NCBI GenBank assembly: GCA_003160215.1
Contig: PLQW01000161.1
Span: forward strand, 1 to 47,078
Origin: Acidobacteriaceae bacterium
GTDB lineage: Bacteria; Acidobacteriota; Terriglobia; Terriglobales; Acidobacteriaceae
Reading direction: 5' to 3'
DNA: 47,078 bases
Shown: in pieces, positions 11,634-43,399 of the stretch
Layout: each line of letters starts with the position of its first letter
How positions within the stretch are numbered: the stretch's first letter is position 1
Notes under the pieces: generated by a model
What the model was told of the DNA's origin: nothing
The model's input: the letters and a program-made list of their open reading frames with translations, nothing else
Databases searched by the model: none
Position numbers and translations under genes: made by a program

Positions 11634-11662
11634 TCCTGTCTTAATGCGGTAAACTTGAGCCG

Positions 11663-14280: not shown

Positions 14281-14362
14281 TTGCCCACTGGTACAGAAAT
14301 TCCGGGTGACAGTATTCCGAGCCGGGTGCCCCACTCAAGCCGTTTCGTCACCGTCAGGCGGA

Positions 14363-15727: not shown

Positions 15728-15746
15728 CCAGTTTGCCGCCTGCTCC

Positions 15747-16592
15747 TTAATGTTTCGCGCTCGCCGTTGTCGGGTTGCTGTCCTTCACCGTGTAGTCCGA
15801 TGGAACTTGAAATAACTGTGCCATCGGCTCTGTGCGAACAATATTGATCAGCTTCATCGTAGTATGGCCCGACTGGCCATCATCGGTTTCGGTTAATACC
15901 GTCATCTTTAACTCCGGAGAAAACCACGTCTCGCTCACGGAGACAATCGGCTTGTCGTTACCCACCGATCCGGCATCGATGATCCGCGTCGTCCGGGTAC
16001 CCGTAGCGTTAACGCCTTCGATGTACTTGCTCCCGAGGGCTTCGGTCTTGGTATCGACCGGCGTGGTGTTGAGCTTCGCTCCCATCTTCGAAGTGGTAGC
16101 TGCCCCCGGCGTTGCATTCCGTTGTGCTGAGTTTGGCCCTGGTGGCACAGGAGCAAGGTTCACGGGTGCGCCCGCAACATTGCCCATCCCGACCGCCGTC
16201 GGCCCGACTCCCTGTCCAAAGTGGAAAATCGTCGCCGTCTTCATCTTGGGGTTGAGGTTGACGATCACCTTCTGAACGGGGTCATTAATCGTGATATGTT
16301 CAAATTTTTCAGCACCTGGTTGAGCGGGCAGCGTCTCGGTGTCGGTGCGCATCCGGCCTTGGCTGTCGCGGAAGATCTTGCCGCCCGTTTCGCGACGGAT
16401 ATGGCCGCCGTTGTCCAGAGTGCGATCGTACTGGGTAACCACGTCGGCTGAGAACGGCGAGTTTTTTACCGCGGCTGATGCGGTTGCGTTTGTGACTCCC
16501 GCCGGACCGGCAACTGCGCGTCCGCTCACCTGTGCACCAACTATTCCCGTCACCAGCAGTAGCAGCCCAGTTAGAATCCAACGTAGTCCCAT
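15747..16592 (-). CDS. Exported hypothetical protein
   Basis: The start ATG 16,592 has an AAGGGGAT site; an upstream extension adds 25 residues before the signal peptide and is unlikely. Of 281 residues, the first ~25 are a signal peptide (WILTGLLLLVTGIVGAQV). The mature part contains TGGKIFRDSQGRMRTD, a TITINDPVQ-type beta segment, a Pro/Ala/Asn-rich linker, and a second beta-rich part (SVSETWFSPELKMTVLTET). The pattern is that of exported LolA/LolB-like or DUF-type beta proteins common in Acidobacteriota. Function is unknown. Confidence 0.6.
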   Translation of the reverse strand: MGLRWILTGLLLLVTGIVGAQVSGRAVAGPAGVTNATASAAVKNSPFSADVVTQYDRTLDNGGHIRRETGGKIFRDSQGRMRTDTETLPAQPGAEKFEHITINDPVQKVIVNLNPKMKTATIFHFGQGVGPTAVGMGNVAGAPVNLAPVPPGPNSAQRNATPGAATTSKMGAKLNTTPVDTKTEALGSKYIEGVNATGTRTTRIIDAGSVGNDKPIVSVSETWFSPELKMTVLTETDDGQSGHTTMKLINIVRTEPMAQLFQVPSDYTVKDSNPTTASAKH

Positions 16593-16737
16593 ATATCCCC
16601 TTTGCTCGCCCCCACTTTCATGCGACGAAACACTGATGTTTCTATTGTGTGCTGGATCGAGCGGCAATGCAACTTTATCCGCTCCTGCCAGCTACCTTGC
16701 GTAAGCGGGCGCACCTAAACGTACACTGGGGCGGAAG

Positions 16738-16909
16738 AGTCTGTGTGAGAACCAACTGTGGCATTTGCCAATAACGTCCATGTGACGCAAATCCAGCGCC
16801 GTCAGGCGCGGAATAGTCTAGCTCAGCACGGAGCCGCAGGCGGAGTGCTGGGTAAGGTGGAAAATAGATCCGAGCCCCTTTAGGGGCGGCAGAGGTTCTC
16901 ACACAGTCT
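16738..16909. repeat. 172-bp repeat with 12-bp inverted ends
   Basis: The ends are AGTCTGTGTGAGAACC and GGTTCTCACACAGTCT (12 bp perfect core). The inside holds short palindromes (for example GCCCCTttAGGGGC). It lies in the gap between the exported hypothetical and MscS genes and looks like a MITE or REP-type unit. Confidence 0.55.
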
Positions 16910-16957
16910 AGGAAAAGCGGCGTCCTGGCGCTCTTCCGTCTACGGCCGACCTCGCGA

Positions 16958-17800
16958 TCAAGCCGAATGCGCCGCGGCAACTCCGGCGGCGGCCGTACGC
17001 ACCATGTAGTGCTGCTCCGGCACTGCGAAACCGGCGGTGGTGAACGAATCCCTAATTAGCTTGTTGGTATCGAAATATACCTGCCAATAGTTTTTGTTGT
17101 TGCAGTAGGGTCGAACCGCGAGTACAGGCCCCGCCAGGTTGAAGGTCAAGATCTCGACGTCGGGAGCCGGATCGGCCAGGACATTTGGAATGCCGCCCAA
17201 GGCCGTCTTGAGCAGCGCCATCGCCGCGTGTACATCGACCCCGTGCGCCAGCTGGGCGGTCAGGTCAACCCTGCGGTATGCGTTGGTGGAGAAGTTCTGG
17301 ATGACGTCGCCGAAGATCTTCGCATTGCCGATGATGTTGCGGACGTTGTCCAGCGTGTCAATAGAACTGGCGAACAACCCAACTTCGTGCACCGTGCCTG
17401 TTACTCCGCCGGCCGTCACAAAATCTCCAACCTTCATCGGCTGCAGGATCACTAGAAAAACTCCCGAAGCAAAGTTCGAGAGCAGGCCGCTCCACGCCAG
17501 GCCGATGGCCACACCGGCGGCTGCGATGAGGGCTGCCAGGCTGGTCGTCTGGACGCCGAAGAAGCCGAGAATGGCGATGACTAATACAATGTTGAGGATG
17601 GCGCCGACCGCATTCTGGATATAGCGGATCAGCGTAGGATCGACTTTCTGACGGGTCATGCCGCGGCCGATCAAACGCAAGGCAAAACCGATCAGCCAGC
17701 GACCGACAATCCACAGCGCAAGGGCTTCCAGCACTCGTATGCCCAGCGCTATCAGCGCTGCCCAGCCCGCTTGCATCAATGTATCCACCTTCGTTTGCAT
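16958..17800 (-). CDS. MscS-family small-conductance mechanosensitive channel
   Basis: The 280-residue protein has three membrane helices: residues 12-40, about 66-84, and the pore-lining TM3 at about 88-115 with Gly/Ala packing (ALIAAAGVAIGLAWSGLLSN). The MscS beta domain follows (VGDFVTAGGVTGTVHEVGL, DTLDNVRNIIGNAKIFGDVI). The channel opens under membrane tension and releases osmolytes. The C-terminal alpha/beta cage is present up to residue 265. It is the size of E. coli MscS. It is a single gene between two terminator- or repeat-bearing gaps. Confidence 0.9.
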   Translation of the reverse strand: MQTKVDTLMQAGWAALIALGIRVLEALALWIVGRWLIGFALRLIGRGMTRQKVDPTLIRYIQNAVGAILNIVLVIAILGFFGVQTTSLAALIAAAGVAIGLAWSGLLSNFASGVFLVILQPMKVGDFVTAGGVTGTVHEVGLFASSIDTLDNVRNIIGNAKIFGDVIQNFSTNAYRRVDLTAQLAHGVDVHAAMALLKTALGGIPNVLADPAPDVEILTFNLAGPVLAVRPYCNNKNYWQVYFDTNKLIRDSFTTAGFAVPEQHYMVRTAAAGVAAAHSA

Positions 17801-17924
17801 GATTAGATTCCTCCCGGGAGACGACGTTACCCGACTGCTCGCGGCGATGGTAACACAGGAATTGTTACGATTCTGTGGCGGGAATTGGGGGATCTGGCTG
17901 GCGCAGAGGTGTTTTTGCCCTGCA

Positions 17925-17949
17925 AGAAAAAAGCGGTCTATAGGCCGCT
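17925..17949 (-). terminator. Rho-independent terminator of the P-loop kinase gene
   Basis: On the minus strand AGCGGCC-tata-GACCGCT forms a 7-bp stem (one G-U pair), directly followed by TTTTTTC. It lies 29 bp after the stop of the kinase gene. Confidence 0.7.
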
Positions 17950-17977
17950 CTTCCCTTCTTTCGATATCTGTGACGAA

Positions 17978-18961
17978 TTAGTATTCGGCATCCGCCACGT
18001 TCGGTGGCTCGGCTTCGTCGGGTTGGGTTTCCGACACTGCCTGAGGCTCCTCGGCGGTACCGCCTTGGCCGTCCTTCTTTCTCAATCGCACAACCGTGAT
18101 CTTGGCGAAGCCCTCTTCAAACTTCGGCGGACGCAGCTTGGCCGCCATGCGCTGCATAACGTCTTCCGGCACGTTGCGATCGCGGCGCCGATTGCGTTCG
18201 ATACAGACTTCCGGCGGCACATCGAAGAACACCGCATGCGCCTCGTAGCCGAAGTCATGCGCCAGCTTCACCCAACTGCGACGCTCGTGCGCCGACAAAT
18301 TGGTGGCGTCCACGTAGTTCCAAGGACGCCGGGCCAGTAGCCGCGCGCGCAGCATGGAGCGCAAGGTCGAGAACACCAGGTCCTGGAAACGCTGCTCGGT
18401 GACGTCGTCGAACAGTAGAATCCGCACCATGTCGCTGGACAGCGGGAGAATGTTGTGACGCTTAAACCAGGTGCTCTTGCCGGATCCCGGCAGTCCGATC
18501 GACAGCACTACCGCGCCCTTCGATTTCTTGGTCTCGTGAGGCGCTGGCGGACGAGGCGCTGCGGGAGCAACTGCCGCGGGTTCTCCAGCCTCTGTCGGTT
18601 CCTCGGCCTCTCCCGCTTCTCCGGTCGGACCACCCGGGCCAGGCAGGGCAGTGGCCTGCACGGCCTGCTGTGGGCGGCCACCACGGCCGCGTCGTCCGCG
18701 GCGGCGGTTGCGGTCACGCCGCTGCTGCTGGGAAGGTTCTTCGCCTGCACCCGCCGGGCCGGTTGGCTGCGGCTCGTTCGACGTAATATGGGGTTCCGCT
18801 TGAGTTTCGGGCTGTGCTGCGAAATCGGGCTGCCTGTCTGCGTCGGCCTCAGCAGCCGTGGGATCGGGGAATTTGGGTTGCAGCGGGGCGGGATTCTCCT
18901 GCCCTGGCTTGTCGTCTGGCGATTTGCGCCGCTTGCCGCGGTCGCGCATCCATCTGCGCAT
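17978..18961 (-). CDS. P-loop polynucleotide kinase-like protein with disordered arginine-rich N-terminus
   Basis: The C-terminal half is a P-loop kinase of the Pnkp/Zeta-like group: Walker A GLPGSGKSTWFKR, SSDMVR, DATNLSAHERR, and a lid with RNRRRDRN. The N-terminal ~140 residues are low-complexity: Pro/Ala/Glu/Gln-rich, with an RRDRNRRRGRRGRGG block resembling RNA-binding RGG-type tails. The combination suggests an RNA-associated 5'-kinase or a nucleic-acid repair enzyme, but the substrate is unknown. The start is uncertain: the longest frame begins at 19,057, ATG 18,961 is chosen because what lies upstream looks non-coding, and no strong ribosome site is visible. Confidence 0.65.
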   Translation of the reverse strand: MRRWMRDRGKRRKSPDDKPGQENPAPLQPKFPDPTAAEADADRQPDFAAQPETQAEPHITSNEPQPTGPAGAGEEPSQQQRRDRNRRRGRRGRGGRPQQAVQATALPGPGGPTGEAGEAEEPTEAGEPAAVAPAAPRPPAPHETKKSKGAVVLSIGLPGSGKSTWFKRHNILPLSSDMVRILLFDDVTEQRFQDLVFSTLRSMLRARLLARRPWNYVDATNLSAHERRSWVKLAHDFGYEAHAVFFDVPPEVCIERNRRRDRNVPEDVMQRMAAKLRPPKFEEGFAKITVVRLRKKDGQGGTAEEPQAVSETQPDEAEPPNVADAEY

Positions 18962-19170
18962 GTTGCACTTGTAACACGCCTGCCTAGCTGGGAGCAATCG
19001 GCTGCCCGTCTGCGCCACCCTGGAGGCCGCTGCCAGAGGTACGGTGATATAGGCCATTGCCTCGCCCCACTCCGGATGCTAGGCTTTGGTTTCAGTTCAT
19101 TATTGCTCGTAGCTAGGGCGCAGTTCAGGATAATTGGATTCAATCTCACACGAACTTTTAACGAGGCGAA

Positions 19171-20181
19171 ATGGCAATCAAAGTAGGTATCAATGGCTTC
19201 GGGCGCATCGGCCGCAACATTCTGCGGACTGCGCTCACCGACAAGAATTTGGAATTCGTTGCGGTCAACGACCTCACCGACCCCAAGACGCTGGCGCACC
19301 TTCTGAAGTACGACTCCATCCTCGGCAACTTGAAAAACGAGATCTCCGCTACAGCCGACTCCATCAGCGTGGACGGCAAGAGCATCCGCGTCTTTGCCGA
19401 AAGGGATCCATCCAAGCTCGATTGGGCGTCGGTGGGGGCGCAGGTGGTCATCGAGTCCACCGGCAAGTTCACCAAGGCGGAGCTCGCCAAGCAACACCTG
19501 CGTGGGCCGGTGAAGAAGGTCATCATCACGGCGCCGGCAAGCAATGAAGACATCACCATCGTGTTGGGCGTCAACGAAGACAAGTACGACCCGGCAAAGC
19601 ACCACGTGATTTCCAACGCATCCTGCACCACGAATTGCCTGGCGCCCATTGCCAAGGTCATCAACGATAACTTCAAAATCGTGTGCGGCACCATGACCAC
19701 GATCCACTCCTACACCAACGATCAGGTCCTCCTCGACTTTCCGCACAAGGACCTGCGCCGCGCTCGGGCGGCCGCGCTGTCCATGATTCCGACCTCGACC
19801 GGCGCCGCCAAGGCGGTCTATCTGGCGATCCCTGATTTGAAGGGCAAACTCGACGGCTTCGCCATGCGCGTGCCGACGCCTAATGTCTCGGTGGTTGACC
19901 TGGTGGTGTTCGTGGAGAAGAAGACCAGCGTGGAAGAGGTGAACAACGCGCTGAAGGCCGCGTCCGAAGCGGGGCCGCTGAAGGGCTACCTGGGATACGA
20001 GACTGCCGAACTGGTCTCGATCGATTATCGGGGCGACGATCGCTCCTCGATCGTGGACGCGCCCATGACCCGCGTGGTGGCCGGCAATTGCGTAAAGGTA
20101 ATCTCGTGGTATGACAACGAGTGGGGCTACTCCTGCCGAGTCCGCGACCTGATTCATTACCTCGGACAGAAGGGGCTGTAA
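19171..20181 (+). CDS. gap: Glyceraldehyde-3-phosphate dehydrogenase
   Basis: The 336-residue enzyme oxidises glyceraldehyde-3-phosphate to 1,3-bisphosphoglycerate with NAD. The nucleotide-binding start [13 protein letters not shown], the catalytic Cys in [12 protein letters not shown] (about residue 151), the His in [10 protein letters not shown], and the C-terminal [12 protein letters not shown] are all present. GAGG precedes the ATG. It heads the glycolytic block gap-pgk-macro-tpiA. Long open frames on the opposite strand are artefacts of its codon bias. Confidence 0.97.
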
Positions 20182-31172: not shown

Positions 31173-31217
31173 TTCGATTAATTATACCTGCCTCTTTCGA
31201 TGCCTCGCCTGCGGCCC

Positions 31218-31222
31218 CCTGT
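31218..31222. repeat. Left copy of candidate target-site duplication (CCCTG)
   Basis: CCCTG abuts the left end of the Mu-like element and is repeated at 42,162-42,166 next to the right end. Five bp is the duplication length known for Mu-type transposition. Confidence 0.55.
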
Positions 31223-31229
31223 TGTGAGT

Positions 31230-31249
31230 TTGCAATTTATTTGTCACTC
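31230..31249 (+). other. Transposase end site L1
   Basis: TTTGCAATTTATTTGTCACT. It matches R1 (inverted) at 16-17 of 20 positions and lies 6-7 bp from the left terminus. Confidence 0.65.
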
Positions 31250-31366
31250 GCGGGGTTTGGCGGTGGATGGAGGGGACTGGAGGTTTTTCGCGGGTTAAAC
31301 CACTAGCGATAAACTACTTAGCGGGGATGCGGCTGGGCTTCCTCTTATGCTAAAGTCTGACAGGAA

Positions 31367-31386
31367 TTTGCACGCTCTTTGTCACT
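31367..31386 (+). other. Transposase end site L2
   Basis: TTTGCACGCTCTTTGTCACT. It is the same class as L1 and closest to R2. It lies 137 bp inside L1. A weaker third site may exist near 31,473 (CTTTGCAACAATG). Confidence 0.6.
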
Positions 31387-31561
31387 AAACACTTCGAACT
31401 CTACACGTCCTAACCTAGAATCAACAACTTACGAAAAATACCTCGCGAAATCGAATAAGACACTAAGTGCAAAACTTTGCAACAATGTTCAAAAACGGTC
31501 ATCCCCAAAAATCTCCCTCAGAAGCGAGAAAAAACGCGATTGAAGCCGCCGCCCCGGTGAC

Positions 31562-32047
31562 TTAAAAGTGCGGGAATGTGGGCAGCGGACCCGCTCGATG
31601 TTTCGACTGCTCGATAAAAAGCTGCAACGAGGAGCGCGATATCCGCCACTTGGCCTGGGGCACGATCTGGTACGCCTCGAAGCATCCCATCTCGATGCGC
31701 CCCACCAGGCCGTCGTAATGGATGAACCCCAGGGCGCGCATAGCCTCCTGGAAGTTGATGGTATCGGCCAGCGGGAAGGGCAGCAGGTCGCAATCGCGAT
31801 GCCGCAAGTAGGGCGCCGACAGCGGCGGCCGGCGTTCGGGAATATGGTGCAGCCGTCGCAGATGGTCGCAGTAGGACACCACCGAGTGGTAATTGATGCG
31901 CTTCACCGTATGGCCGCCGTAGTTTATGGAGGCGATGAAGCCCATGGCCAACATGCGATGGATGCCAGCGCGGCTCACTCCCAGGATAGCTTGCGCGCGC
32001 CGGTTGTCGATGTACTCCTTCTCGGCTAAGGGAAAAAGATCGTTCAT
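31562..32047 (-). CDS. Double helix-turn-helix DNA-binding protein
   Basis: The 161-residue protein has two excisionase/MerR-like HTH modules. The first is RRAQAILGVSRAGIHRMLAMGFI followed by a wing (GGHTVKRINYHSV), here cited in parts. The second is INFQEAMRALGFIHYDGLVGR with a wing ending AKWRISRSSLQLF. This is the layout of paired HTH_17-type domains that bind direct repeats. It is the last gene of the leftward operon, next to the left end of the element. It could be an end-binding, excision or regulatory factor. Confidence 0.6.
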   Translation of the reverse strand: MNDLFPLAEKEYIDNRRAQAILGVSRAGIHRMLAMGFIASINYGGHTVKRINYHSVVSYCDHLRRLHHIPERRPPLSAPYLRHRDCDLLPFPLADTINFQEAMRALGFIHYDGLVGRIEMGCFEAYQIVPQAKWRISRSSLQLFIEQSKHRAGPLPTFPHF

Positions 32048-32118
32048 GGTTTTCTCCGTCGAGGGGTCCCTTCCTTTCGCAACCTCAGTAGTCAGTTAGG
32101 CCGCTGAAGCACTTGTCG

Positions 32119-32760
32119 CTACACCGTTCCTAAGCCATCAGCGCATTTAAAGTCTTCTGCCAGACTGGGAAGATCTAAAAGATCTGCGGGATCACACCAA
32201 CCGAGTTCACACAGCTTCTTGAAGTAGGCCGAGGGGTCATCGGCCACTTGCATCGATGGCCTAAGGCTGCGCGTTTTCGCCAAGTGCCTAGCCTCTTCAA
32301 TGAAGGACTGCTCGATAGCCTGCATACGATCATGGGCAGATGAGCTAAAGGACACGGCATAGCCATGATCTCTGGCGAAGTCTAAAGGATCGAAGCCGGA
32401 GCGTAGCCTGGCAATCGCGAGCAGCACACTAGCTCTCAACCCATATTGGCGTGCAGCCACCTGAGCTGCTACAACGGTCTCGGCAAGAAAGGAAAAATCT
32501 TCAAGGGCATTAGCCATTGGAATCGACAGCAACCCTCGCTCCAGACAAGCATTCATGGCGAGTGAGAGTACCGTGCAGCCCTTTGCGGTGAGAAGATTAG
32601 CGAGCAATTCATCGCTCGCACGATCAAAAGGGGTGCGTCCTGAATTTTGTGGGAGCATCTTCGCTTTAGGTTTTGAGTGGGTCAATTTCGACGATTGGTG
32701 TTTAGACACGGCCTTCACTGTTTTCTTTTCTACTCGGCTTTCCGCGAGTGATGGAGGCAC
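32119..32760 (-). CDS. Glucosaminidase-like protein lacking the expected catalytic Glu
   Basis: The 213-residue protein begins with GTG. It has a basic low-complexity N-terminus (about 1-50). A region follows that resembles FlgJ-type/endo-beta-N-acetylglucosaminidase domains: LRASVLLAIARLRSGFD where active enzymes read like AQAALESGWG, then QSFIEEARHLAKT and SAYFKKLCELGWC (compare FaxkLqxaGYAtD). The Glu of the ESGWG motif is replaced by Arg (ARLRSGF). It may be a decayed endolysin or a dead-enzyme binding protein. The match is by eye and distant. Confidence 0.4.
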   Translation of the reverse strand: MPPSLAESRVEKKTVKAVSKHQSSKLTHSKPKAKMLPQNSGRTPFDRASDELLANLLTAKGCTVLSLAMNACLERGLLSIPMANALEDFSFLAETVVAAQVAARQYGLRASVLLAIARLRSGFDPLDFARDHGYAVSFSSSAHDRMQAIEQSFIEEARHLAKTRSLRPSMQVADDPSAYFKKLCELGWCDPADLLDLPSLAEDFKCADGLGTV

Positions 32761-32812
32761 GCAAACGATAGTTGAAAAGGGCGGCGCAGGGTAGGCTTGC
32801 GTGCCAGACAGC

Positions 32813-33403
32813 CTATCCCGCAGACATCACATTTGTTTCACATGCTTCGAAGCAGCTTTCCCCACGCGCGGGCTGCGATGGCGCTGCTGTCCACAGTCCG
32901 CGGGTCTGTAGCATCTTTTTAAGAGCCCAGCGCACCCGGTTCGCCTGGGCCACTGTGCGAATCTGGGGTTGCGAGTGGTGGCCTAGCGGCGAGCGCGGCG
33001 AGCGCAGCCAGCGATCGAAGGCGTCGCGGTCCCAGCCCAGCCGGTGGTAATAGCGCTCGATGTTTTCAAGATCAAAAGCCGATGCCATCTGTGGGGCCTG
33101 GCGAAACCTCTCACCATCCCACCGGCCGTCTTTTGCGTGACGCTCCGCCTGCTCACGGTCCATCGGCTTGGGCCTAGCTTTGGCTTGCGGCGCATCCTTC
33201 TGCAAGCGCGCGATCGCGGTGTTGGCTTCTGCGCTGCTTAGCTCGCTAAACGATTCCATTTTGCGCCCCACTACCAGCGACGCCCACAGCAACCGCTCTT
33301 CGCGGGTGCGGGTGCGCGGATCGGCAGACGCAGCAGCAAACTGCGAGTACAGCGTCTGCAGGCGCTTCAGTTGCCGCGCGGTGATGGGCTGCGGTTCACT
33401 CAT
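32813..33403 (-). CDS. Mu-type early accessory protein (GemA-like?), 196 residues
   Basis: The start ATGAGTGA overlaps the end of the ATPase gene, so it is co-translated. The N-terminus ITARQLKRLQTLYSQF is followed by a helical part, and later EADNI-type helices (FDLENIERYYHRLGWDRDAF, in parts) and IRTVAQANRVRWALKKML. Small helical proteins with an N-terminal ITxRQLxxLq motif occur just after MuB in many Mu-like phages (GemA/gp16 region). That family link is tentative. The stop is TAG. Confidence 0.45.
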   Translation of the reverse strand: MSEPQPITARQLKRLQTLYSQFAAASADPRTRTREERLLWASLVVGRKMESFSELSSAEANTAIARLQKDAPQAKARPKPMDREQAERHAKDGRWDGERFRQAPQMASAFDLENIERYYHRLGWDRDAFDRWLRSPRSPLGHHSQPQIRTVAQANRVRWALKKMLQTRGLWTAAPSQPARGESCFEACETNVMSAG

Positions 33404-34400
33404 CTTTCGCAGCCTCAGCCTGCAGCTTGATCTGTTCGAGTGCGTTAGTCAGCGTCCGCACGTTAATATAGCGACGGTTTTCGAAGACATCCTTTACCGT
33501 GGATCCAGCGATTAGGGCGCGGATTCTCTTTCGCGAGCCATCGGGCGTGCTCGCTTTCAGCAACTCGCCGATCTCGCGGAGGATGATGCCTTCGGCTTCA
33601 GCCTCGTTCACTCCGGGCAACCGAACCTTGTCCAGTATCCGCGAATTCCACTGCTCCAAGTGCGACGCAAATTTATCAAACGTCTGCTTTAGGTCGTGAC
33701 TACCGGCAAACAATAAAGAAAAATTCGGGGGCTGGTCTAGCAGAACGCGCAGCGTCTCGAAGGCGTTGATGGAGAGGTGCTATGCCTCGTCCACGACCAG
33801 CAGGGCGCGCCGGCCTTGGAAGTCGTGCGCCAGGTTACGTGCAATGCGCATCCTGTCGCCCGCACTGGACGTGCCGCAGGCGATCGCCACTGCCTTCATC
33901 AACTGTGACGGGGTCATCTGGCCGATGGCATACACGTAGAAGGCGGCTTGAACCGGCTCGCTTTTCTTTACCTCTTCGCGGTTCAATTCCGCAACCAGGT
34001 GTTCGAGCACGAACGACTTCTGACTACCTGGGGGGGCATATATCATGTACGCAACCGGGCGGCGGAGCAGTTGCTGAAAGGTATCGCGCATGGCGCGCAC
34101 GTTGGCTGTGTTGTACAACTCGCCAAATACCGCTGTTTTCGGCCCGATTGGATTCGCCGCCATGCATTTACTAATTGCCCGACAGATATTCTTTGAACTG
34201 CCTGCGACGAAGTGGAAGCGGTCGCTGATGAATTTTCTCAACGTCTCACGCGAGTAGCCGATTCGTCCTGCAAAATCACCCTCCGACAAACCTGTGCGCT
34301 CCATGTAATCGAGCAGCTTCGCCCGCACCTCGTCGCGGCCGTCGTCCGGGCTGGACTCAAGCCTTAATTTATGCTCTTGACACTGGCTAAGGGTGGCCAT
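33396..34400 (-). pseudogene. MuB-like AAA+ target-selection ATPase, split by an amber codon in Walker B
   Basis: ATG 34,400 lies one base after the transposase stop, with a GGGGAGG site inside the transposase end. Codon 207 is TAG (33,780-33,782) in LLVVDEA-stop-HLSINAF, where MuB/ExeA-type ATPases have DEAQHL. The frame then runs on to TGA 33,396, with sensor 1 LLFAGSHDLKQTF. Total 334 codons before the final stop. The N-terminus has an XRE-like HTH (LSEGDFAGRIGYSRETLRKF), as in MuB. Walker A is YAPPGSQKSF, with Gln replacing the Gly before Lys. MuB-like proteins bind target DNA and activate MuA. It is a likely loss-of-function allele unless amber is read through. Confidence 0.8.
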
Positions 34401-34401
34401 T

Positions 34402-36351
34402 TTAGACGGCCTCCCCTCGGAAGCGCCGTGCGCCTTCGGCGGCTGAGATGGGCGCCACCGCCGCTCGGAACTGCCGTGCGAGCGCAGCGGCACTCAACGG
34501 GGCCACGGCAGTGTTATCGGGGCGCAATGACGGCCGCCGTTGTGTCACCACTTCACCTACAGCAACACCCGCGCGCGCCGCCAAATGCTCAACTTCGGTG
34601 AGCGCGCCGTTGGCCCGCGCTTCGCTACCGATACCGAGGACCTTTTGTCGCGTCTGCTTTTCCAGATGTCTGCGTTGCTGCATACTCAGCGCGATCGTTT
34701 CGTTCGCGTCGGCCGATTGCGGCACCATAGTTTCTTGTCGCGCCCAAGCGATCAACTGGCCCTCCAGGTCGAGCACGGCAATCTTCTCCAGGTCGAGCGG
34801 ATCGAAGGCAACAAAGACGTCGCGACAATTCATCTCATGCAGCACCGCTGCCGATCGCGGATCGTCGGCAATGTAACGCCGCTTGGCCCGCACGATGCTG
34901 CACTCGCGCACCGTGCGCCGCTCACGCTCGGCGAGCATCAGCGCCAGGACTTCACGCGCGGGTACAGGCTTCTGACGTGTGTTGCGCTCCTCTTCAAACA
35001 CTTGCCGCGGAGTCCTGCCATTCATGCCCTTTCCGCCATGCGGCTTGTTGTGGTAAATCTCCTCGATCCAGGCGATAGCCATGCGAATGAACTGGGTGGC
35101 TGGCGGATGCAGCGAATTGCCAGGCATGCCCATCCGAAGGAGGCGGCGGTGCTGCCGCATCGCTTCAGTGGTGAAGTCGGGGCGGCGGTCCGGAGATCCT
35201 CCAGTGTAAGTCGGGAATATTTTGTCCAACCGCCCGTGCAGAGTGCGGAAGAAACGCTCTATGTGCTTCGATTGAGGATGAAATGGAAGACAGTACTGCA
35301 CTGCCATGCCCAGGCGCGCCAGCACACCGCATTCATCTAGAGCCCTCATCTCCTGCTCGCGCCAGTCCGCTGAGGCCAACGGATTTTCGCGTAAGTACGC
35401 CGGAATGGCCCCACGGCCAATTTTTTTGAAGTCCTTTCCATTATCTACATAAAATACTTCGGCAGGTCCGTACCTGGTGACCGCATGGCGAAGCGCTGTC
35501 GTAATAGAGCGGCTGGACCCCTCCCAAGCCCATGAAGTCCCCACCACGAAGCGCGACCTGAAGTCCAATATCGCCGTCAGACGCAGGCGGATTGGAGCCC
35601 CAAACTCGGCATCGAAGAAGTAATCATTTTGGACTTCCACGTCGTGGATCATGGTATCGCTCACCCAGATCTCATTCGAGGCCACATCGGTGTAACCGCG
35701 GGAGACGTAGGGTGAGCAGCGCTCGCGATAGACTCTCCGGCCTTCGCGCGCCAACAATTTCAGCGGCTCACTAAAAGCGTTGCCAGTGAGGTACCGATAG
35801 ACGGTCCAATAGGAAGGCAACTCCTTCGGCTCCAGCCCGAGCAATAGAGCATCGCGCTGCAAGGCTTCGTAGGCGGTGCGCACACTCTGACGCTCCTCCA
35901 GGTAGAGATACCCGACCAAGGTCGCAGCCTTGGGATACCGCTCAAAAAATCGCGACTGGTCCTTGTCCTTGCGCGTTGAGTCGGCGAGGCCGATAAGGCC
36001 GCCCTTAGAGAAGCGATCGACCCAGCGCCAGATCGTGCGGTGGGTCAGCTGGTGCTTGTGCGCCAAGTAGAAGCACATCTGAGTCCGGGTGGCGACCGGG
36101 CTGCCATCGGGAAGGAGCAGCCCCAAGTCAAGTTGCAGCTGTCCAGGCGGGACCGCGCGCTGATCGGCCTCAAAGCGGATCAGCGGCTCGATGATGGTAT
36201 AGCGCCCCCGAGCCTGGGCTTCTTGCTCAGCTGTAGTGAATGCGACCTTCACCAGCGGCTGCATCGCCGGCGCGTCTGGCACCGCCGGCAGCAGCGGCTT
36301 ATCGGGAAGCGCCAGCGCCGATTCCTTAGCCGACGCGCGGTGGTCACTCAT
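34402..36351 (-). CDS. MuA-type DDE transposase
   Basis: The 649-residue protein begins at ATG 36,351, overlapping the upstream HTH gene (ATGAGTGA). After an N-terminal ~85 residues comes an HTH (LTHRTIWRWVDRFSKGG) and a second DNA-binding part (ERQSVRTAYEALQRD). The rve-type core has Asp 232 in EIWVSDTMIHD, Asp 303 in VFYVDNGKDF and Glu 365 in SKHIERFFRTL. The Mu C-terminal domain follows (GRTPRQVFEEE, VFVAFDPLDLEKIAVLD). The 62-residue D-to-E spacing is near that of MuA. It cuts and joins the element ends. The Ala-rich tail (PLSAAALARQFRAAVAPIS) contains a repeated segment. Confidence 0.92.
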   Translation of the reverse strand: MSDHRASAKESALALPDKPLLPAVPDAPAMQPLVKVAFTTAEQEAQARGRYTIIEPLIRFEADQRAVPPGQLQLDLGLLLPDGSPVATRTQMCFYLAHKHQLTHRTIWRWVDRFSKGGLIGLADSTRKDKDQSRFFERYPKAATLVGYLYLEERQSVRTAYEALQRDALLLGLEPKELPSYWTVYRYLTGNAFSEPLKLLAREGRRVYRERCSPYVSRGYTDVASNEIWVSDTMIHDVEVQNDYFFDAEFGAPIRLRLTAILDFRSRFVVGTSWAWEGSSRSITTALRHAVTRYGPAEVFYVDNGKDFKKIGRGAIPAYLRENPLASADWREQEMRALDECGVLARLGMAVQYCLPFHPQSKHIERFFRTLHGRLDKIFPTYTGGSPDRRPDFTTEAMRQHRRLLRMGMPGNSLHPPATQFIRMAIAWIEEIYHNKPHGGKGMNGRTPRQVFEEERNTRQKPVPAREVLALMLAERERRTVRECSIVRAKRRYIADDPRSAAVLHEMNCRDVFVAFDPLDLEKIAVLDLEGQLIAWARQETMVPQSADANETIALSMQQRRHLEKQTRQKVLGIGSEARANGALTEVEHLAARAGVAVGEVVTQRRPSLRPDNTAVAPLSAAALARQFRAAVAPISAAEGARRFRGEAV

Positions 36352-36865
36352 GGCGCGCCGTCGATTCTGCGCCGGCCGGAGATTCCCCGTCAGGGAAATA
36401 TCTTCCCCTCGCGTAACTGAGGACCACGCCATAAGAAGGCGCGTTGTGCCCGTAGCTGGTGCGAAGATTTTTCCAAATAAAGAACGGCGAGTCGCCCATG
36501 TCTAACATGAGGCGGATGGCGCCTTTGAAATATGGCCGCTTGAAAAGGCGGTTGGAGCGGCCGAGGTCGGCGCGTTGCTTTTGGGCCAGCGCTGCGAGAC
36601 CGCCTCGTTTCCACCGACGATACCAGCCCCATACAGTGCTGGGCGACAGCCTGTAGTCCGCGGCAATTTGCTCCGTGATCGAAGTTAGAGATAGTCCCCG
36701 CTCTTGCCCCACGGGCGCCGCGCAGAAGCGGCCGAGGCAATCGCGCAATGGAGAGACTGCGCTGCCGTGCGCGCGGTTGTGCGGCAACATCGGCGCAATT
36801 GCGAGCAGTCGATCTACTGCACTGTGTCGGTGAATAACGCTCGGTGATGAGTTCGGGCCGTTCAC
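36344..36865 (-). CDS. HTH protein, separate DNA-binding partner of the transposase
   Basis: I place the start at GTG 36,865, whose GTGA overlaps the stop of the upstream gene; the longer frame to 37,060 covers that gene antiparallel in frame and is unlikely. The 173-residue product has a homeodomain-like HTH, SITEQIAADYRLSPSTVWGWYRRWKRGG (in parts), then LAQKQRADLGRSN and a second helical part (KGAIRLMLDMGDSPFFIWKNL). This resembles the end-recognition domains normally fused to MuA-type transposases. Its coupling to the transposase start suggests the two act as one complex. Confidence 0.6.
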   Translation of the reverse strand: MNGPNSSPSVIHRHSAVDRLLAIAPMLPHNRAHGSAVSPLRDCLGRFCAAPVGQERGLSLTSITEQIAADYRLSPSTVWGWYRRWKRGGLAALAQKQRADLGRSNRLFKRPYFKGAIRLMLDMGDSPFFIWKNLRTSYGHNAPSYGVVLSYARGRYFPDGESPAGAESTARHE

Positions 36866-37092
36866 TGGCAGACCTTCTGAAGGCGGCGCAAAAATAAGGC
36901 TTTTTCGCAACGACGCTCCCACCAGGTGCAAATACACCAGGAGATGCATGTCGCTAGAATGCCTCCGAGCAAGCAAGCGCCAATCAGGTTTTGAGTAAAT
37001 GGGATGAGCAACAGAGAGAGCCGCGCCCACAGCAAAAACGTGAAGAAGATGAAGCCCCAACGGAGAAAATTTGTTTTATGTGTGGTTCTCAC
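36862..37092 (-). CDS. Small two-helix membrane protein
   Basis: The product is 76 residues from GTG 37,092, which has a strong GGAGGA site located in the end of the upstream gene. Two hydrophobic stretches are seen: FLRWGFIFFTFLLWARLSLLL and LIGACLLGGILATCISWCI, here quoted in part. They are followed by a basic tail. Start and stop overlap neighbours by GTGA on both sides. A membrane protein between regulator and transposase genes is unusual. It might affect lysis, superinfection or anchoring; there is no direct evidence. Confidence 0.55.
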   Translation of the reverse strand: MRTTHKTNFLRWGFIFFTFLLWARLSLLLIPFTQNLIGACLLGGILATCISWCICTWWERRCEKALFLRRLQKVCQ

Positions 37093-37478
37093 TTTTTCCT
37101 CCTCCGGCGATTGGCCGTTGGTGTCGCGATCTGGTCGACCAGGTTCTTGCACGCCACCGCGTGCTCGCCCACCTGGATCAAGCCTAAAGTCTCTTCATCC
37201 TCTAGGAGTCGATGGAGAGCTCGGGAGCCGATTACCGCACAGAACGCCTTGACAAATGCTGCCGGAAACCGCGCTGCGCACTTGCGCTTCGACGTAAAAT
37301 CGTTAAGCATATGTTCTGAGATTGGCACACCGACGATTGCGCTCATTCTGACCGCAATTTCTGGCCGCTTCAGCCCAGAGCGCCGAATTTCATCGGCGAG
37401 AAGTTGGCGTAGAGCCGAGTCTGGCGGTTGCGTTGTTCGAGTATTTTGTTGGGCGATAGGTATATGCTTTTCAGTCAT
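37089..37478 (-). CDS. Early DNA-binding regulator of the Mu-like element
   Basis: The 129-residue helical protein has a HTH-like part: LRQLLADEIRRSGLKRPEIAVRM, quoted in part, followed by ISEHMLNDFTSKRKCAARFP and a helical C-terminal segment with AFCAVIGSRALHRLL. The same layout is seen in small regulators heading early operons of Mu-like phages. The basic C-terminus NRRRRKK overlaps the ribosome site of the next gene. Divergent to the XRE repressor with 41 bp between, so it probably plays the Ner-like role. Confidence 0.55.
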   Translation of the reverse strand: MTEKHIPIAQQNTRTTQPPDSALRQLLADEIRRSGLKRPEIAVRMSAIVGVPISEHMLNDFTSKRKCAARFPAAFVKAFCAVIGSRALHRLLEDEETLGLIQVGEHAVACKNLVDQIATPTANRRRRKK

Positions 37479-37519
37479 TCCTTATTACCATCGTAGAAGG
37501 CGTATCTACTGGGATAAGG
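37479..37519. promoter_or_regulatory. Divergent control region of the Mu-like element
   Basis: Only 41 bp separate the early operon from the repressor. TCCTTAT (37,479-37,485) and its inverse ATAAGGA (37,514-37,520) frame it and also serve as the ribosome sites. The promoters must lie inside the flanking genes or overlap here, so the repressor could block both directions. Confidence 0.45.
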
Positions 37520-38626
37520 ATGGCACGCGATCGAGCGCGCCGTCAAGAGAATAAATTGGCAGCAAAACTGAAATTACGAACCTCCCGAGCACTGCACCTG
37601 ACGGACATCAGGAAAAAGCTGCTGCTGACGCAGGAAGCGCTCGCGGGAAAGATAGACGTGAAGCCAGGTACTATCGCTGCGTGGGAGAGCGCGGCCAAGG
37701 CCACTGATTACTGGCCTTCCACCGAGATACTGGCCCGGCTCGCAGCCTTCATAGCGAAGCGCGGCAAACGGTTCGATGGAGACTGTATTTGGCTTCTGAA
37801 GGAGGCCGGGACTCTTAGCGCCGACATTTTGCGGGTGCTTGACAATCAGCGCAATCGGCGGACGAAGCCCCGTCCATCCGAGCCCGGCGAGATCGTTTCC
37901 TTACCGCTCATGGATGCAGCGAGCGGTTATTCCCCCGCAGCTTCTTTTGTGCAGACGGTAGAACTCCCTGCAAGCCTGCTGCGCGAACGTGGCTCCCTAG
38001 TCTGTGTGCACATAGAGCAGGCTGAGTTAATAAAGTCGTTTCCGCTTGCCCCGGGAGGGCTTCTGGTGCTGGACCAGTCGGAAACGGATCTGGAGTTGTT
38101 GCTGCCGTCATCCATTCCAGTGGCCATCTACTATTCACGCCTGCGAAATTCGCAGGAGCGCGGGCCAATCAACCGAGAGCAGTCGATCACCTATGCAGAC
38201 CTTCGCAGATCCGCGGAGGCGGTAGCGCGGCTGCGCGAACTGGCAGGCCTGGACGAAGCTGGCACAAATTCTAAAGAGCTGTGGACGAAATACGGCCCAT
38301 ATGAGAAGGATCCGAAGAAGAAGTGGGACGTAGCAGGCATTCACGTTGGCTGGCTCGTTCTTGAGTACGCTGGAGGCGACGAGGGCGAAGGCCCGTGGCG
38401 CATAGTCTCGCGGGGAGCATCGGTAGACGGATTGTGCACAGGGCGAAGTCTTGCACTCACCGAGTGGGATCAGGGGCCTGGTCCGTTAGGGGTGCATTGC
38501 CGGCTGTCTGACTTGATGGTCGAAGATCAGCGCATCCTCGGGAGAGTTGTTTTGTGGCTCCCCGAATGGAGCCCAGCCGCTGAGGGTGCGCAACCGGCGG
38601 CAAAATCGCGAAAGGAGCCGAAGTAG
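37520..38626 (+). CDS. XRE-family phage repressor with C-terminal effector domain
   Basis: The 368-residue protein has an N-terminal HTH of XRE type (RKKLLLTQEALAGKIDVKP then TIAAWES). The middle part (IVSLPLMDAASGYSP, LPASLLRERGSLVCVHIE, PGGLLVLDQSETDLE) resembles the strand order of S24/LexA-like repressor C-terminal domains. The usual Ser-Lys dyad is not clear. A further ~130 residues (LWTKYGPYEKDPKKKWDVAG onward) are unrecognised. Placed divergent to the early operon, it is the likely lysogeny repressor (Mu c equivalent). Transcribed toward the late stub. Confidence 0.65.
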   Translation: MARDRARRQENKLAAKLKLRTSRALHLTDIRKKLLLTQEALAGKIDVKPGTIAAWESAAKATDYWPSTEILARLAAFIAKRGKRFDGDCIWLLKEAGTLSADILRVLDNQRNRRTKPRPSEPGEIVSLPLMDAASGYSPAASFVQTVELPASLLRERGSLVCVHIEQAELIKSFPLAPGGLLVLDQSETDLELLLPSSIPVAIYYSRLRNSQERGPINREQSITYADLRRSAEAVARLRELAGLDEAGTNSKELWTKYGPYEKDPKKKWDVAGIHVGWLVLEYAGGDEGEGPWRIVSRGASVDGLCTGRSLALTEWDQGPGPLGVHCRLSDLMVEDQRILGRVVLWLPEWSPAAEGAQPAAKSRKEPK

Positions 38627-38881
38627 ATGGGCGCCTTTTCGCTTGAACGCCAATTTTGCCCTCTGCGGGCCTCGAAGAGACCGGGTAAGGGTCTAGCCCC
38701 ACTTTTTAGTTTGAGGCCCGCCAATGCCCGCGTCACATGTGAACGGACGCCTTTAAGCGATGCGGATGTCTGGGCCGGGTGCTCTGCGGAGGCGGTTTTG
38801 AGGAAAGAGGAGAAAACGGTGGTTTTCGACGGAAAAGCGGGACTGCGGGTTATTTCAAAAAGGCAGGCCGCACGTAACTGA
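38627..38881 (+). CDS. Hypothetical protein, doubtful
   Basis: An 84-codon frame starts immediately after the repressor stop (TAG ATG) and ends just before the next gene. It is basic, with no domain, no membrane helix and no clear ribosome site. It could be a relic of a deleted gene or simply open by chance. Confidence 0.25.
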   Translation: MGAFSLERQFCPLRASKRPGKGLAPLFSLRPANARVTCERTPLSDADVWAGCSAEAVLRKEEKTVVFDGKAGLRVISKRQAARN

Positions 38882-38901
38882 CGGATTCGGAGGAAAAGGA
38901 C

Positions 38902-39564
38902 ATGGCAAAAGATAAGGCCCAGGAGAGGATCGAGCAACTGGAGACCGAACTCAAGAACCTGACAGCGGCACGCCGCTTGCGCACCGAGCAGATTACTGCG
39001 CTCGAAACCGAACAGCGCAAGCATATCGTCGGCGCGCGGGTTTCCAAGAACGCGCAGGCTCAGGGCAACATCGATCGCCTATCGATCGAAATTGCGAAAC
39101 TCCGGACGGAGGACGCTTGGGACTGCGCTGCGATCGAGGAGATGTCCACCAGCCTGGCCGAAGAAAAGGCTGCATTGGGTCGCGCACTATGGCAAACGCG
39201 CTGCGCAACCGTGAACCGTCTGCTCAAATCTCGGTCAAAGGGTGTTCTTGAGCAGCGTCTTCTTGATCTGGCGCTTCAGCTAAGGCAGACAGTAGCTGAG
39301 ATCGCTGGATCGGACAAAGAAATTGCAAATACCCTGCGGGACCTTCATCCTTCGCTGCTACGCGATGTCAACGAGTTCCCTTATAGGGATCGCTGGCGCC
39401 GCGCCGCTCTCAGCTATCTGCTGAGGGATGCGGTTGACACTCCGGTCTGCCAGGAGCCGATGTACACCGCGCGAATGCAAGAGCTGGCGGTCGAGTCTTT
39501 CGAACTACTGATGCGCCACGTTAACGAAGTGGCCGAGATAGAACCTGCAGTTGAGGCGGCCTGA
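38902..39564 (+). CDS. Coiled-coil protein of the Mu-like element
   Basis: The ATG has GGAGGAAAAG upstream. The 220-residue protein is mostly helical: a long coiled coil at about residues 5-100 (ERIEQLETELKNLTAARRL, IEEMSTSLAEEKAALGRAL), another at 115-145, and a compact C-terminal part with an ARMQELAVESFELLMRH helix. No enzymatic motif. Similar-size coiled proteins occur in the middle or early-late region of Mu-like phages, but I cannot name a family. Confidence 0.6.
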   Translation: MAKDKAQERIEQLETELKNLTAARRLRTEQITALETEQRKHIVGARVSKNAQAQGNIDRLSIEIAKLRTEDAWDCAAIEEMSTSLAEEKAALGRALWQTRCATVNRLLKSRSKGVLEQRLLDLALQLRQTVAEIAGSDKEIANTLRDLHPSLLRDVNEFPYRDRWRRAALSYLLRDAVDTPVCQEPMYTARMQELAVESFELLMRHVNEVAEIEPAVEAA

Positions 39565-39582
39565 GAGTTTGAAGTATAAAAA

Positions 39583-39653
39583 GTTCGCCGGAGAGCATAC
39601 CTCCTCGAACGGCGGAACAGCGCGGGGGTCGGGGCCAGCCAGCCTCCCCCCGC
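39583..39653 (+). other. Two adjacent strong hairpins in the gap before the protease gene
   Basis: Stem 1 pairs GTTCGCCG (39,583-39,590) with CGGCGGAAC (39,610-39,618) with one bulge. Stem 2 pairs GCGGGGG (39,622-39,628) with CCCCCCGC (39,646-39,653). No T tract follows, so a simple terminator is unlikely. It may be a structured RNA element or a phage-specific signal. Confidence 0.35.
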
Positions 39654-39799
39654 ATTCTGGAGAGTTTGGAGTGCAGCCTTTCGCGGGAGGTTAGGCCCCT
39701 TGCCGCGGACAAAGTGCGGGCGGTGATTCGGGTTCGTGTCCCGCTCGCACTTCTTGAGGTTGCGAGTGGAACAGACGAGGGCAGAAAGTGGGAACCAGC

Positions 39800-40657
39800 A
39801 TGGCAAAAAACAAAAGCCTCGAAAGCCTCGAAGGGCAGTGGGCGCCGTTGATGCGTGCCGGGGTTTATGGCGGCCACAGCTATTCAAGCAGCGACCTGGA
39901 CGAGGTAGTAAGCAACTTCGATCCCAGCCCTGCCGGGAAAATTCCGATTCATTTTGGTAAGTCAGATCAGGGCGGGCCGATCGTCGGAAAAGTGACAGCG
40001 CTTCAGCGCGACGGCAATACGCTATCAGGCCAGGTTTCCGAAGTCGATCCACGTCTCGATCAACTATTTATTTCGGGGAAGCTCGGCGGCCGGAGATCCT
40101 TCACCGTGAAGCGCACGCCCAAGGGCTTGGCTCTTGATCGCGTGGGGTTTCATGCTCCGCGCGAATTTGTCAACGGCACATGGCGGGACGGATCAGCAAC
40201 AGAGGCCGATCTCACAAATCTCACGCAGGGCGGCGCCAGCGGGCACTCTGGAACCGCAACCTTTGGTGGCGATGCGCAAGCCGTCATTAGCTTCGAGGAG
40301 CTATTACTGCCCCTGCCCCGGCCGGGAGGTCGATCGATGCAAAGTTCAGACAGCGAGTGGCGTTTCCAGTCGAATTCTGAAGCGCTGAATGATTTGGCGA
40401 AGCAGCGGGCGCGCAAAGGCAAAATTTCCTTCGGCGAGGCTTTGTCGCAAGCGGCAGAAGAGCATCCAGAGTTGACGCTGCCCGGCACAACCATCAGCTT
40501 TGACGATGACGGACCGGCGCCGACAGGCCGCTGCCGTGTGTCTCAGAACTCTGTCGAGTTGAATAGGCTCGCGACGCAGTACCAGCATGTGCAGAAGGTT
40601 TCCTTCGCAGAGGCACTGGGTGCGGTCGCTGCTGCGAACCCCGAACTCACGAGATAA
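39800..40657 (+). CDS. Mu gpI-like protease/scaffold protein
   Basis: I use ATG 39,800 (the GTG at 39,788 is also possible). About 285 residues. The N-terminal ~110 residues fit Mu-type phage protease: PLMRAGVYGGHSYSSSDLDEV, quoted in part, then KIPIHFGK, and a Ser-containing GGRRSFTVKR, and VGFHAPREF. The C-terminal half is scaffold-like with two repeats, EALNDLAKQRARKGKISFGEAL and ELNRLATQYQHVQKVSFAEAL, quoted in part, each ending in hPELT. In Mu-like phages this gene precedes the capsid gene, but here a tape-measure start follows after 8 bp, so the capsid is gone. Confidence 0.65.
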   Translation: MAKNKSLESLEGQWAPLMRAGVYGGHSYSSSDLDEVVSNFDPSPAGKIPIHFGKSDQGGPIVGKVTALQRDGNTLSGQVSEVDPRLDQLFISGKLGGRRSFTVKRTPKGLALDRVGFHAPREFVNGTWRDGSATEADLTNLTQGGASGHSGTATFGGDAQAVISFEELLLPLPRPGGRSMQSSDSEWRFQSNSEALNDLAKQRARKGKISFGEALSQAAEEHPELTLPGTTISFDDDGPAPTGRCRVSQNSVELNRLATQYQHVQKVSFAEALGAVAAANPELTR

Positions 40658-40665
40658 CTTTTCCA

Positions 40666-41034
40666 ATGTCTGGTGCAGACAATTCGACCGTCTCCATCGT
40701 CATCCGAGTAATAGATGACTCCGGCGCGATCAAGAACGTGGAGACCAAGCTCAGCGAGCTGGGCACAGCTGGCACAGCCACCAACGCCAAAGTCGCGGGC
40801 ATGGGCAGCGCGGCGAAGCAGGCGGGAGCCGAAGGCGCGGCTGCATTCGCCAGCATGGGAGCGGCGGCGACAGAAGGCGCGGCCGGCGCTACCGGCGCGC
40901 TGGGAAGGCCGTCACAGTTTCATGGGACCAGGCGAAATGGCTGGGTCAATTGCTGGCCGACGCCGTCACTCGTTTCGAAGCTAAGAACGGGGAAATTAAA
41001 AAGCCGATTACTCCCTAAGTCGGTAACTACTTAG
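40666..41034 (+). pseudogene. Tape-measure protein N-terminus fused by deletion to the end of a DUF3467-like gene
   Basis: Residues 1-79 (TVSIVIRVIDDSGAIKNVET, then an Ala/Gly-rich helix) are the start of a phage tail tape-measure protein, normally over 500 residues. At about 40,903 the reading changes: in the next frame, 40,905-41,018 reads KAVTVSWDQAKWLGQLLADAV then TRFEAKNGEIKKP. This parallels the C-terminus of the gene at 41,055-41,384 (AVTVSWQQAKRVSQALAEAE then TRFEAKNGTIKDA). A deletion has thus joined two genes out of frame. The 122-residue product is unlikely to function. Confidence 0.7.
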
Positions 41035-41054
41035 GACGCCGGGCGGGCACAACA

Positions 41055-41384
41055 ATGCAGGGAGACAAAAAAGCCTTTAGGTTGGTTGATCCGGACGCGG
41101 GGCTCCCCGAGATTTACAGCAACCATCTTGCGCTCAGCGTCACCAGGGACGACGTTCGCCTGGCTTTCGGACAAATCGTCCCACTGGAGCAACGGCTCAT
41201 TGATGCCGCTTTCGAATGGCCGGAAGGAAACGCGAAAACCAAAGCACTACCGGGAATGGTCGCGCAGCGAATAGCTGTAACAGTCTCCTGGCAGCAAGCT
41301 AAGCGGGTGAGTCAGGCGCTCGCTGAGGCCGAGACGCGCTTTGAGGCTAAGAACGGGACCATTAAAGACGCGGAGGCGCCATAG
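41055..41384 (+). CDS. DUF3467-family protein
   Basis: The 109-residue protein has the DUF3467 pattern: PEIYSNHLALSVTRDDVRLAFGQI at the start (quoted in part), and QRIAVTVSWQQAKRVSQALAE near the end, followed by RFEAKNG. The family is small, of unknown role, and found widely, including in mobile elements. A weak ribosome site precedes ATG 41,055. A fragment of a paralogue lies just upstream. Confidence 0.6.
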   Translation: MQGDKKAFRLVDPDAGLPEIYSNHLALSVTRDDVRLAFGQIVPLEQRLIDAAFEWPEGNAKTKALPGMVAQRIAVTVSWQQAKRVSQALAEAETRFEAKNGTIKDAEAP

Positions 41385-41446
41385 CCGGCGAGGCTGAACC
41401 GCAGTACGTTTTAGCAACTAATAGTTGCCAGAGGAAGGGAGGGGCG

Positions 41447-41755
41447 ATGGCCCATTTGAAGGCTGGCGACAAGATGATGGTGGGGGACCCTTCCCAACCG
41501 AGATCCCAGTGGAAAGAGCATGTAGTGCTAAAACCTTTCTATGTGATGCGGGGCGAACCATCAGAACCAAGCGTGAGCGCGAGAGAATACACGGTGGTCA
41601 TAGCTGTGTCGTTCGATGGTGGCATTACGCATGAGCCACTCTCAAAGATTCACCTGACGGCAACGCAGGCAGCTGAATTGTTGAAAGAGGGTGTTGTCAG
41701 GCGGGAAGGATGCACCTCCGCGCGAACGCGCAGAAGAGTGCGATTGTCTATCTGA
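41447..41755 (+). CDS. Hypothetical protein in the right arm of the Mu-like element
   Basis: ATG 41,447 has a strong GGGAGGGG site. Of 102 residues, the first ~85 look protein-like (LKAGDKMMVGDPSQ, EYTVVIAVSFDGGITHEPL, LTATQAAELLKEGVV). The last ~17 are basic and low quality. It is not recognised. The stop overlaps the next start (TGATG), so the two genes are coupled. Confidence 0.5.
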   Translation: MAHLKAGDKMMVGDPSQPRSQWKEHVVLKPFYVMRGEPSEPSVSAREYTVVIAVSFDGGITHEPLSKIHLTATQAAELLKEGVVRREGCTSARTRRRVRLSI

Positions 41756-41928
41756 TGGCGAGAATCTGCCAGCGGCCGGGATGCGGGAATCTGGTGAGGG
41801 AGCATCTCATGCGGTTCTGCTCGGACGTGTGCAAGAAGAGCGACTATTCCGAGTGGCGCCGCGAGCGGCGAACATCGGCGCGCAAAGGCCGCTGCCTAAA
41901 CTGCGGGAGGACTGGAAAGGAAACGTAG
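41755..41928 (+). CDS. Small zinc-finger-like protein
   Basis: The 57-residue protein has two Cys pairs: ICQRPGCGNL with FCSDVCKKSD (a CxxxxC...CxxxC cluster), and CLNCGRTGK at the end. Many short phage proteins of this kind bind zinc and contact DNA or RNA. The start overlaps the stop of the previous gene. It is the last gene before the right end of the element. Confidence 0.5.
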   Translation: MARICQRPGCGNLVREHLMRFCSDVCKKSDYSEWRRERRTSARKGRCLNCGRTGKET

Positions 41929-42112
41929 TCCCTCGTCGGTGGTTTGCGGGTGATCTTTTTTGGTTGAGTTGGGCTAATCAACTTCGGCCCCCTCAGGTAG
42001 TACGGAGTCCCTCACTCCGAGTGTTGTGAAATAGATGACTGGCCCCTCAAGTTGTTTGGTTTTACGATATACCAGACGACACCGGAGATGTGTGTCCGCC
42101 CATTTTGGCCTT
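41929..42112. other. Gene-free right arm of the element
   Basis: It holds a short hairpin CGGAGT-ccctc-ACTCCG (about 42,003-42,019) that could terminate the late transcript, and no gene. The end sites follow. Confidence 0.4.
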
Positions 42113-42132
42113 AGTGACACCGAACGTGCAAA
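42113..42132 (-). other. Transposase end site R2
   Basis: AGTGACACCGAACGTGCAAA; read inward it is TTTGCACGTTCGGTGTCACT, nearly the same as L2. Confidence 0.6.
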
Positions 42133-42135
42133 TTT

Positions 42136-42155
42136 AGTGACACAGAAATTGCAAA
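42136..42155 (-). other. Transposase end site R1
   Basis: AGTGACACAGAAATTGCAAA; read inward it is TTTGCAATTTCTGTGTCACT, nearly the same as L1. It lies 6 bp from the right terminus (GCCACA, 42,156-42,161). Confidence 0.65.
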
Positions 42156-42161
42156 GCCACA

Positions 42162-42166
42162 CCCTG
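42162..42166. repeat. Right copy of candidate target-site duplication (CCCTG)
   Basis: It immediately follows the element's terminal ACA and matches 31,218-31,222. Confidence 0.55.
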
Positions 42167-42376: not shown

Positions 42377-43399
42377 CTACGGCGTAACCACCACCTTGCC
42401 GAACTGCTCGCTCTTGGCCAGATATTCGTGCGCCGCGCGAGTGTCGCTCAGCGGGAAGGTACGATCTACGACCGGCTTCAGCTTGCCCGCGAAAACATGC
42501 TTGAGGACTTCTTCCAACTCACCCATTGCGCCCATGTACGATCCCAGCAGCGAGAGCTGCCGCGAGAACAGGAAACGGAGATCGAGGTCGCCCTGGAAGC
42601 CGGTCGTGGCGCCGCAGGTCACCAGCGTGCCACCGTGTTTCAGCGACTTCACGCTCTCCTTCCACGTGGCCTGACCAACGTGCTCGAAGACGATGTCCAC
42701 CCCGCGGCGATTGGTAATGCGCTTCACCTCGTCGGCGATCTTCTGCTTGTAGTGATCGATGGTGTGGTCGGCGCCCAGTTCACGGGCCTTCGCCAGTTTC
42801 TGCTCATCGCCAGCGGTGGTAATCACCTCGGCCGACAGCATCTTGCAAATCTGGATTGCGGCCGAGCCTACTCCCGAACCCGCGCCCAAAACCAGCACCG
42901 TTTGTCCTGCCCGCAACCGGGCGCGTCCGACCAGCATGTGCCATGCGGTGAGGAAGACCAGCGGGACACTCGCAGCCTCTACGAAGCCCAGCGAATCGGG
43001 GATCGGGATAACGTTCACCCGCGGAACGGCGATCAGTTCGCAGTTTCCTCCGTCCACGCCGTTGCCCAGCACTGCAAATTGCGGGCAGAAGTTTTGGCGT
43101 CCGTTGTTGCACTGCTCGCAGTGATTGCAGAAAACCATCGGCGCCAGCAGCACGCGCGTGTCCGGCTTCAGGTCGGTGATGTACTCGCCGCATTCCACCA
43201 CCTCGCCCGCCACGTCGCTGCCTAAAATATGCGGCAACTTCACGCCCGGCAACCCCATGCGGACCCAAAGATCGAGGTGATTCAACGCACACGCACGGAC
43301 CCGGACCAGGACCTGGTCCTTGCGCAACTCCGGATCGGGAATCTCCTCGTACTTGAGAACCTCTGGACCGCCAAACTCATGAATGCGAACCGCTTTCAT
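42377..43399 (-). CDS. Zinc-type MDR dehydrogenase/quinone oxidoreductase
   Basis: The 340-residue protein starts MKAVRIHEFGGPEVLKYEE, with GGAGG upstream. The structural-zinc lobe is intact (CNHCEQCNNGRQNFC). The Rossmann motif is VLVLGAGSGVGSAAIQICK. In the catalytic lobe Cys is kept (ACALNHLDLW), but the usual GHE is replaced by GSD (HILGSDVAGEVVECG), so catalytic zinc binding is doubtful and a quinone-oxidoreductase-like or enoyl-reductase-like role is more likely. It lies 58 bp downstream of the LRR-Roc gene on the same strand. Confidence 0.85.
   Translation of the reverse strand: MKAVRIHEFGGPEVLKYEEIPDPELRKDQVLVRVRACALNHLDLWVRMGLPGVKLPHILGSDVAGEVVECGEYITDLKPDTRVLLAPMVFCNHCEQCNNGRQNFCPQFAVLGNGVDGGNCELIAVPRVNVIPIPDSLGFVEAASVPLVFLTAWHMLVGRARLRAGQTVLVLGAGSGVGSAAIQICKMLSAEVITTAGDEQKLAKARELGADHTIDHYKQKIADEVKRITNRRGVDIVFEHVGQATWKESVKSLKHGGTLVTCGATTGFQGDLDLRFLFSRQLSLLGSYMGAMGELEEVLKHVFAGKLKPVVDRTFPLSDTRAAHEYLAKSEQFGKVVVTP

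Follow-up and report, generated by a model that had tools for sequence, protein, structure and literature searches.

An in-frame TAG, probably from a recent nonsense mutation, in the Walker B motif of the MuB-like gene of a Mu-like prophage in an Acidobacteriaceae bacterium

The window, that is, the whole stretch of 47,078 nucleotides that was analysed (contig PLQW01000161.1 of an Acidobacteriaceae bacterium from soil), contains a Mu-like element. Its ends are inverted and contain TTTGCAATTT, and CCCTG repeats lie outside both of them; the placement of the left end is uncertain by one base either way. The motifs TTTGCA and TGTCACT are repeated in inverted orientation at the ends (31222-31390 and 42105-42161), and they are likely binding sites of the transposase. 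The features are listed below, the sister element being that of G005, a genome of the same genus.

31217 to 31221, left copy of the 5-bp target-site duplication CCCTG
31222 to 42161, whole Mu-like element, 10.94 kb, with inverted ends TTGTGAGTTTGCAATTT.. and TGTGGCTTTGCAATTT..
32119 to 32760, minus strand, element protein, 63% identical in the sister element
32813 to 33403, minus strand, protein of 196 aa with 79% identity in the sister element; overlaps the MuB-like gene at the end of the latter
33396 to 34400, minus strand, MuB-like AAA+ ATPase gene interrupted by a TAG
33780 to 33782, minus strand, premature TAG at codon 207 of the MuB-like gene, within LLVVDEA-TAG-HLSINAF
34402 to 36432, minus strand, MuA-like transposase open reading frame
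37520 to 38626, plus strand, HTH repressor-like protein
39788 to 40657, plus strand, head maturation protease-like protein (PHROG 976)
40666 to 41034, plus strand, stub of a gene with 1221 codons in the sister element, matching over the first 47 residues only
42162 to 42166, right copy of the target-site duplication CCCTG

The true start of the MuA-like protein is probably an ATG near 36351. The 196-aa protein, which has no family match, sits at the position of gp16/GemA in Mu and may be its counterpart. We did not find a full phage morphogenesis set in the element, whose right arm has only the protease-like gene and some fragments, and it was therefore filed as incomplete.

The MuB-like gene adjoins that of a MuA-type DDE transposase with Mu-transpos_C. 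Its start codon, the ATG at 34400, overlaps the stop of MuA, and the frame comprises 206 codons, the TAG, 127 codons and a TGA (33396-33398), which gives a gene of 334 codons. The protein read through the TAG matches Pfam AAA_22 (1e-17) and PHROG 296 'DNA transposition protein' (8e-20), and its profile matches the solved MuB protein chain 8xvb (6e-14) across the HTH and the AAA+ core; the earlier note, made from the sequence alone, was thus right to call it a MuB-like AAA+ ATPase. Since the AAA+ core of the window copy is interrupted at codon 207, we filed it as a disrupted MuB-like member (pseudogene) and not as a working MuB. The P-loop, APPGSQKS at window 34014-34037, has a Q in place of the G of the usual motif; this Q is a family trait and not a lesion, since it is common to most relatives.

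The same note had placed the TAG at 33780-33782, within the Walker B motif and followed by 127 further open codons, and all three statements agree with our reading of the minus-strand frame; it had left the strand unstated, the TAG being on the minus strand (33782-33780) and the plus strand reading CTA. On base composition alone, 126 open codons after the TAG are expected with P ~0.005, and at the protein level the stretch that follows the TAG shares 76% identity with the closest orthologue; that the frame stays open is therefore not due to chance.

We then compared the codon with those of its relatives. Of 300 related genomes searched at the protein level, among them that of the window, 25 gave matches. 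The closest orthologue, in G005, is 71% identical, its frame is uninterrupted and it has CAG at the position of the TAG. A sense codon was observed at this column in all 26 aligned homologues (the closest orthologue and 25 others), 22 of them having glutamine (20 CAG and 2 CAA) and 4 having other codons; homologues fetched with the DEAQ pattern were excluded from the conservation counts, since that pattern selects for glutamine. As far as these alignments go, the TAG is private to the window sequence. The change from CAG to TAG, which had been proposed as the simplest one, is thus supported by the CAG of the relatives, and none of the 26 homologues stops at this column to encode two separate proteins. 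Exact-match scans of viral contigs revealed no second copy of the TAG allele; no relatives were found in plasmids, and phage records gave one distant match. G005, G007 and G008, all of the same genus, carry 4 to 6 MuB-like copies or fragments per genome (L033, L034, L037 and L057-L059), many of them at contig ends, which suggests that there are many related elements in this genus.

The pN/pS ratio against the closest orthologue is 0.30 before the TAG and 0.35 after it, and changes on the window branch are not in excess after the TAG (5 vs 12 on the other branch). This similar constraint on both sides, together with the lack of a window-branch excess, argues that the stop is recent; it would be either too young to have left a mark or an error.

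Taken together, these data make it quite probable that a decaying Mu-like prophage has had its MuB-like target-capture ATPase inactivated by a recent nonsense mutation, the transition from CAG to TAG. Translation, which is probably coupled to the stop of MuA, would yield 206 residues, and this product would keep the helix-turn-helix at its N-terminus, the P-loop and, of Walker B, the DEA. Lacking the rest of the AAA+ core, it would probably be unstable or inactive. Loss of MuB-like function is therefore likely, and the TAG probably ends efficient target capture. Without MuB, phage Mu transposes almost two orders of magnitude less and has no cis-immunity, whereas its Mu genome immunity is hardly changed (PMC7350765). 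ATPase-site mutants of related proteins keep partial activity (PMC11208146), but in the window copy the truncation takes away the remainder of the core. The proposal that the stop switches off both target selection and transposition immunity thus holds for the likely loss of function but has to be qualified for immunity, Mu genome immunity being barely dependent on MuB (PMC7350765).

The TAG is not the only lesion. The MuA-like protein of the window is without an N-terminal DNA-binding segment of about 50 codons, which is present in the orthologue and in 19 other related loci (E < 0.01); indeed, the PHROG 310 match begins at position 96 in the window protein and at position 8 in the orthologue. 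With this segment lost and the 1221-codon gene reduced to a stub, the element has at least two sites of damage apart from the TAG. Since the transposase is also damaged, the TAG is better seen as one lesion among several than as a switch, and we infer neutral decay as its cause. Two observations count against decay: the MuB-like frame is otherwise intact, with no second lesion in the gene itself, and the MuA-like deletion is in frame, the catalytic D, D and E being kept in the alignment with the sister element, so that some transposase function could remain.

The main rival to a nonsense mutation, which we consider rather unlikely, is that the TAG is a base-calling, assembly or strain-mixture error and that the resident gene reads CAG. 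It gains some weight from the nature of the genome, the single assembly that shows the TAG, which is a draft in 292 contigs with a completeness of 93.8% and is probably metagenome-assembled, and from the rest of the MuB-like frame being intact and under constraint. Two-base N gaps occur in places in this draft, and two of them break tRNA genes (L066:914-1000 and L071:485-565), a sign of scaffolding errors. However, there is no N within the window, the large lesions of the element are independent of the TAG and are not base errors, and substitution errors are rare in consensus assemblies.

Readthrough of the TAG by suppression or recoding, giving the full-length ATPase at a low, controlled level, is very improbable. 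The frame after the TAG is intact with a pN/pS near the upstream value, and the ancestral residue is glutamine, which some suppressors insert. Against this, the genome has one intact copy of the RF1 gene (prfA; 528 bits), and none of the tRNA loci read by ARAGORN, in a genome that is 93.8% complete so that absence is not absolute, has the CUA anticodon of a suppressor tRNA; the odd ARAGORN calls, two of which contain N gaps, were read by eye and none has it either. Moreover, no relative has a stop at the TAG column, and another gene of the window, a host dehydrogenase (42377-43399), ends normally in TAG where its families end, being matched to residue 339 of 340. With an intact RF1 and no CUA tRNA detected, readthrough is without support, and the same holds for the dependence on suppression that had been envisaged. 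The heptamer CTCTAAA was found genome-wide in 146 places, fewer than the control pattern, a result that points neither way. Fainter still is the case for selection maintaining the TAG as a leaky off-switch, with rare events of readthrough giving traces of the ATPase; if true, a small, non-packaging Mu-like element could then move at a low rate without harm to the host. Equally hard to credit is a division into two proteins, of which one, a short regulatory form, would end at the TAG and the other, C-terminal, would restart downstream: the gene would indeed be split into two open stretches, but no relative is split at this column, the conserved AAA+ core is cut by the break, and the post-TAG frame has no in-frame ATG. 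Its possible restarts are TTG or GTG codons, the earliest of them 23 codons on, and they lack a clear ribosome-binding site.

Under the nonsense mutation, the annotation should be a disrupted pseudogene for the MuB-like gene and a defective prophage for the element; the TAG is unfit as evidence of codon reassignment and has little importance beyond annotation. A change of genetic code was rejected, RF1 being present and TAG being a normal stop in the window. The likeness to phages that reassign TAG is limited to an in-frame TAG in a phage gene; unlike in these phages, a single such TAG was seen, in an examination that covered the MuB-like gene and a few genes of the window, RF1 is present, no suppressor tRNA was found and other genes end at TAG.

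The element resembles cryptic (incomplete) Mu-like prophages, in which the transposase region is kept, most structural genes are missing and several genes are broken; incomplete prophages commonly lose genes of lytic functions (PMC7744054). It differs from them in that its sister element within the genus is likewise short, with a length of about 15 kb (L076 about 4840-19901 and on into L077), so that part of the gene loss may predate the insertion in the window. The sister element is flanked by host genes other than those in the window, and reading its ends by eye suggests a 5-bp repeat of its own, GCTGT. The elements of 10.9 and about 15 kb have in common the transposition genes, the protease-like gene and a homologue of the long gene, and neither contains a recognised capsid, portal or terminase gene. 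The one wider point is that two genomes of a single genus carry, each at a site of its own, a short Mu-like element without most structural genes; such elements are possibly a mobile defective unit.

The closest known protein is MuB of bacteriophage Mu, the ATP-dependent target DNA activator B, which also has an N-terminal HTH and an AAA+ core and is also encoded directly after a MuA-type transposase. In the alignment its Walker B reads DEADHL, and its P-loop reads GVGKT where the window protein and most of its own relatives have GSQKS. Unlike MuB of Mu, the window copy is interrupted by a TAG.
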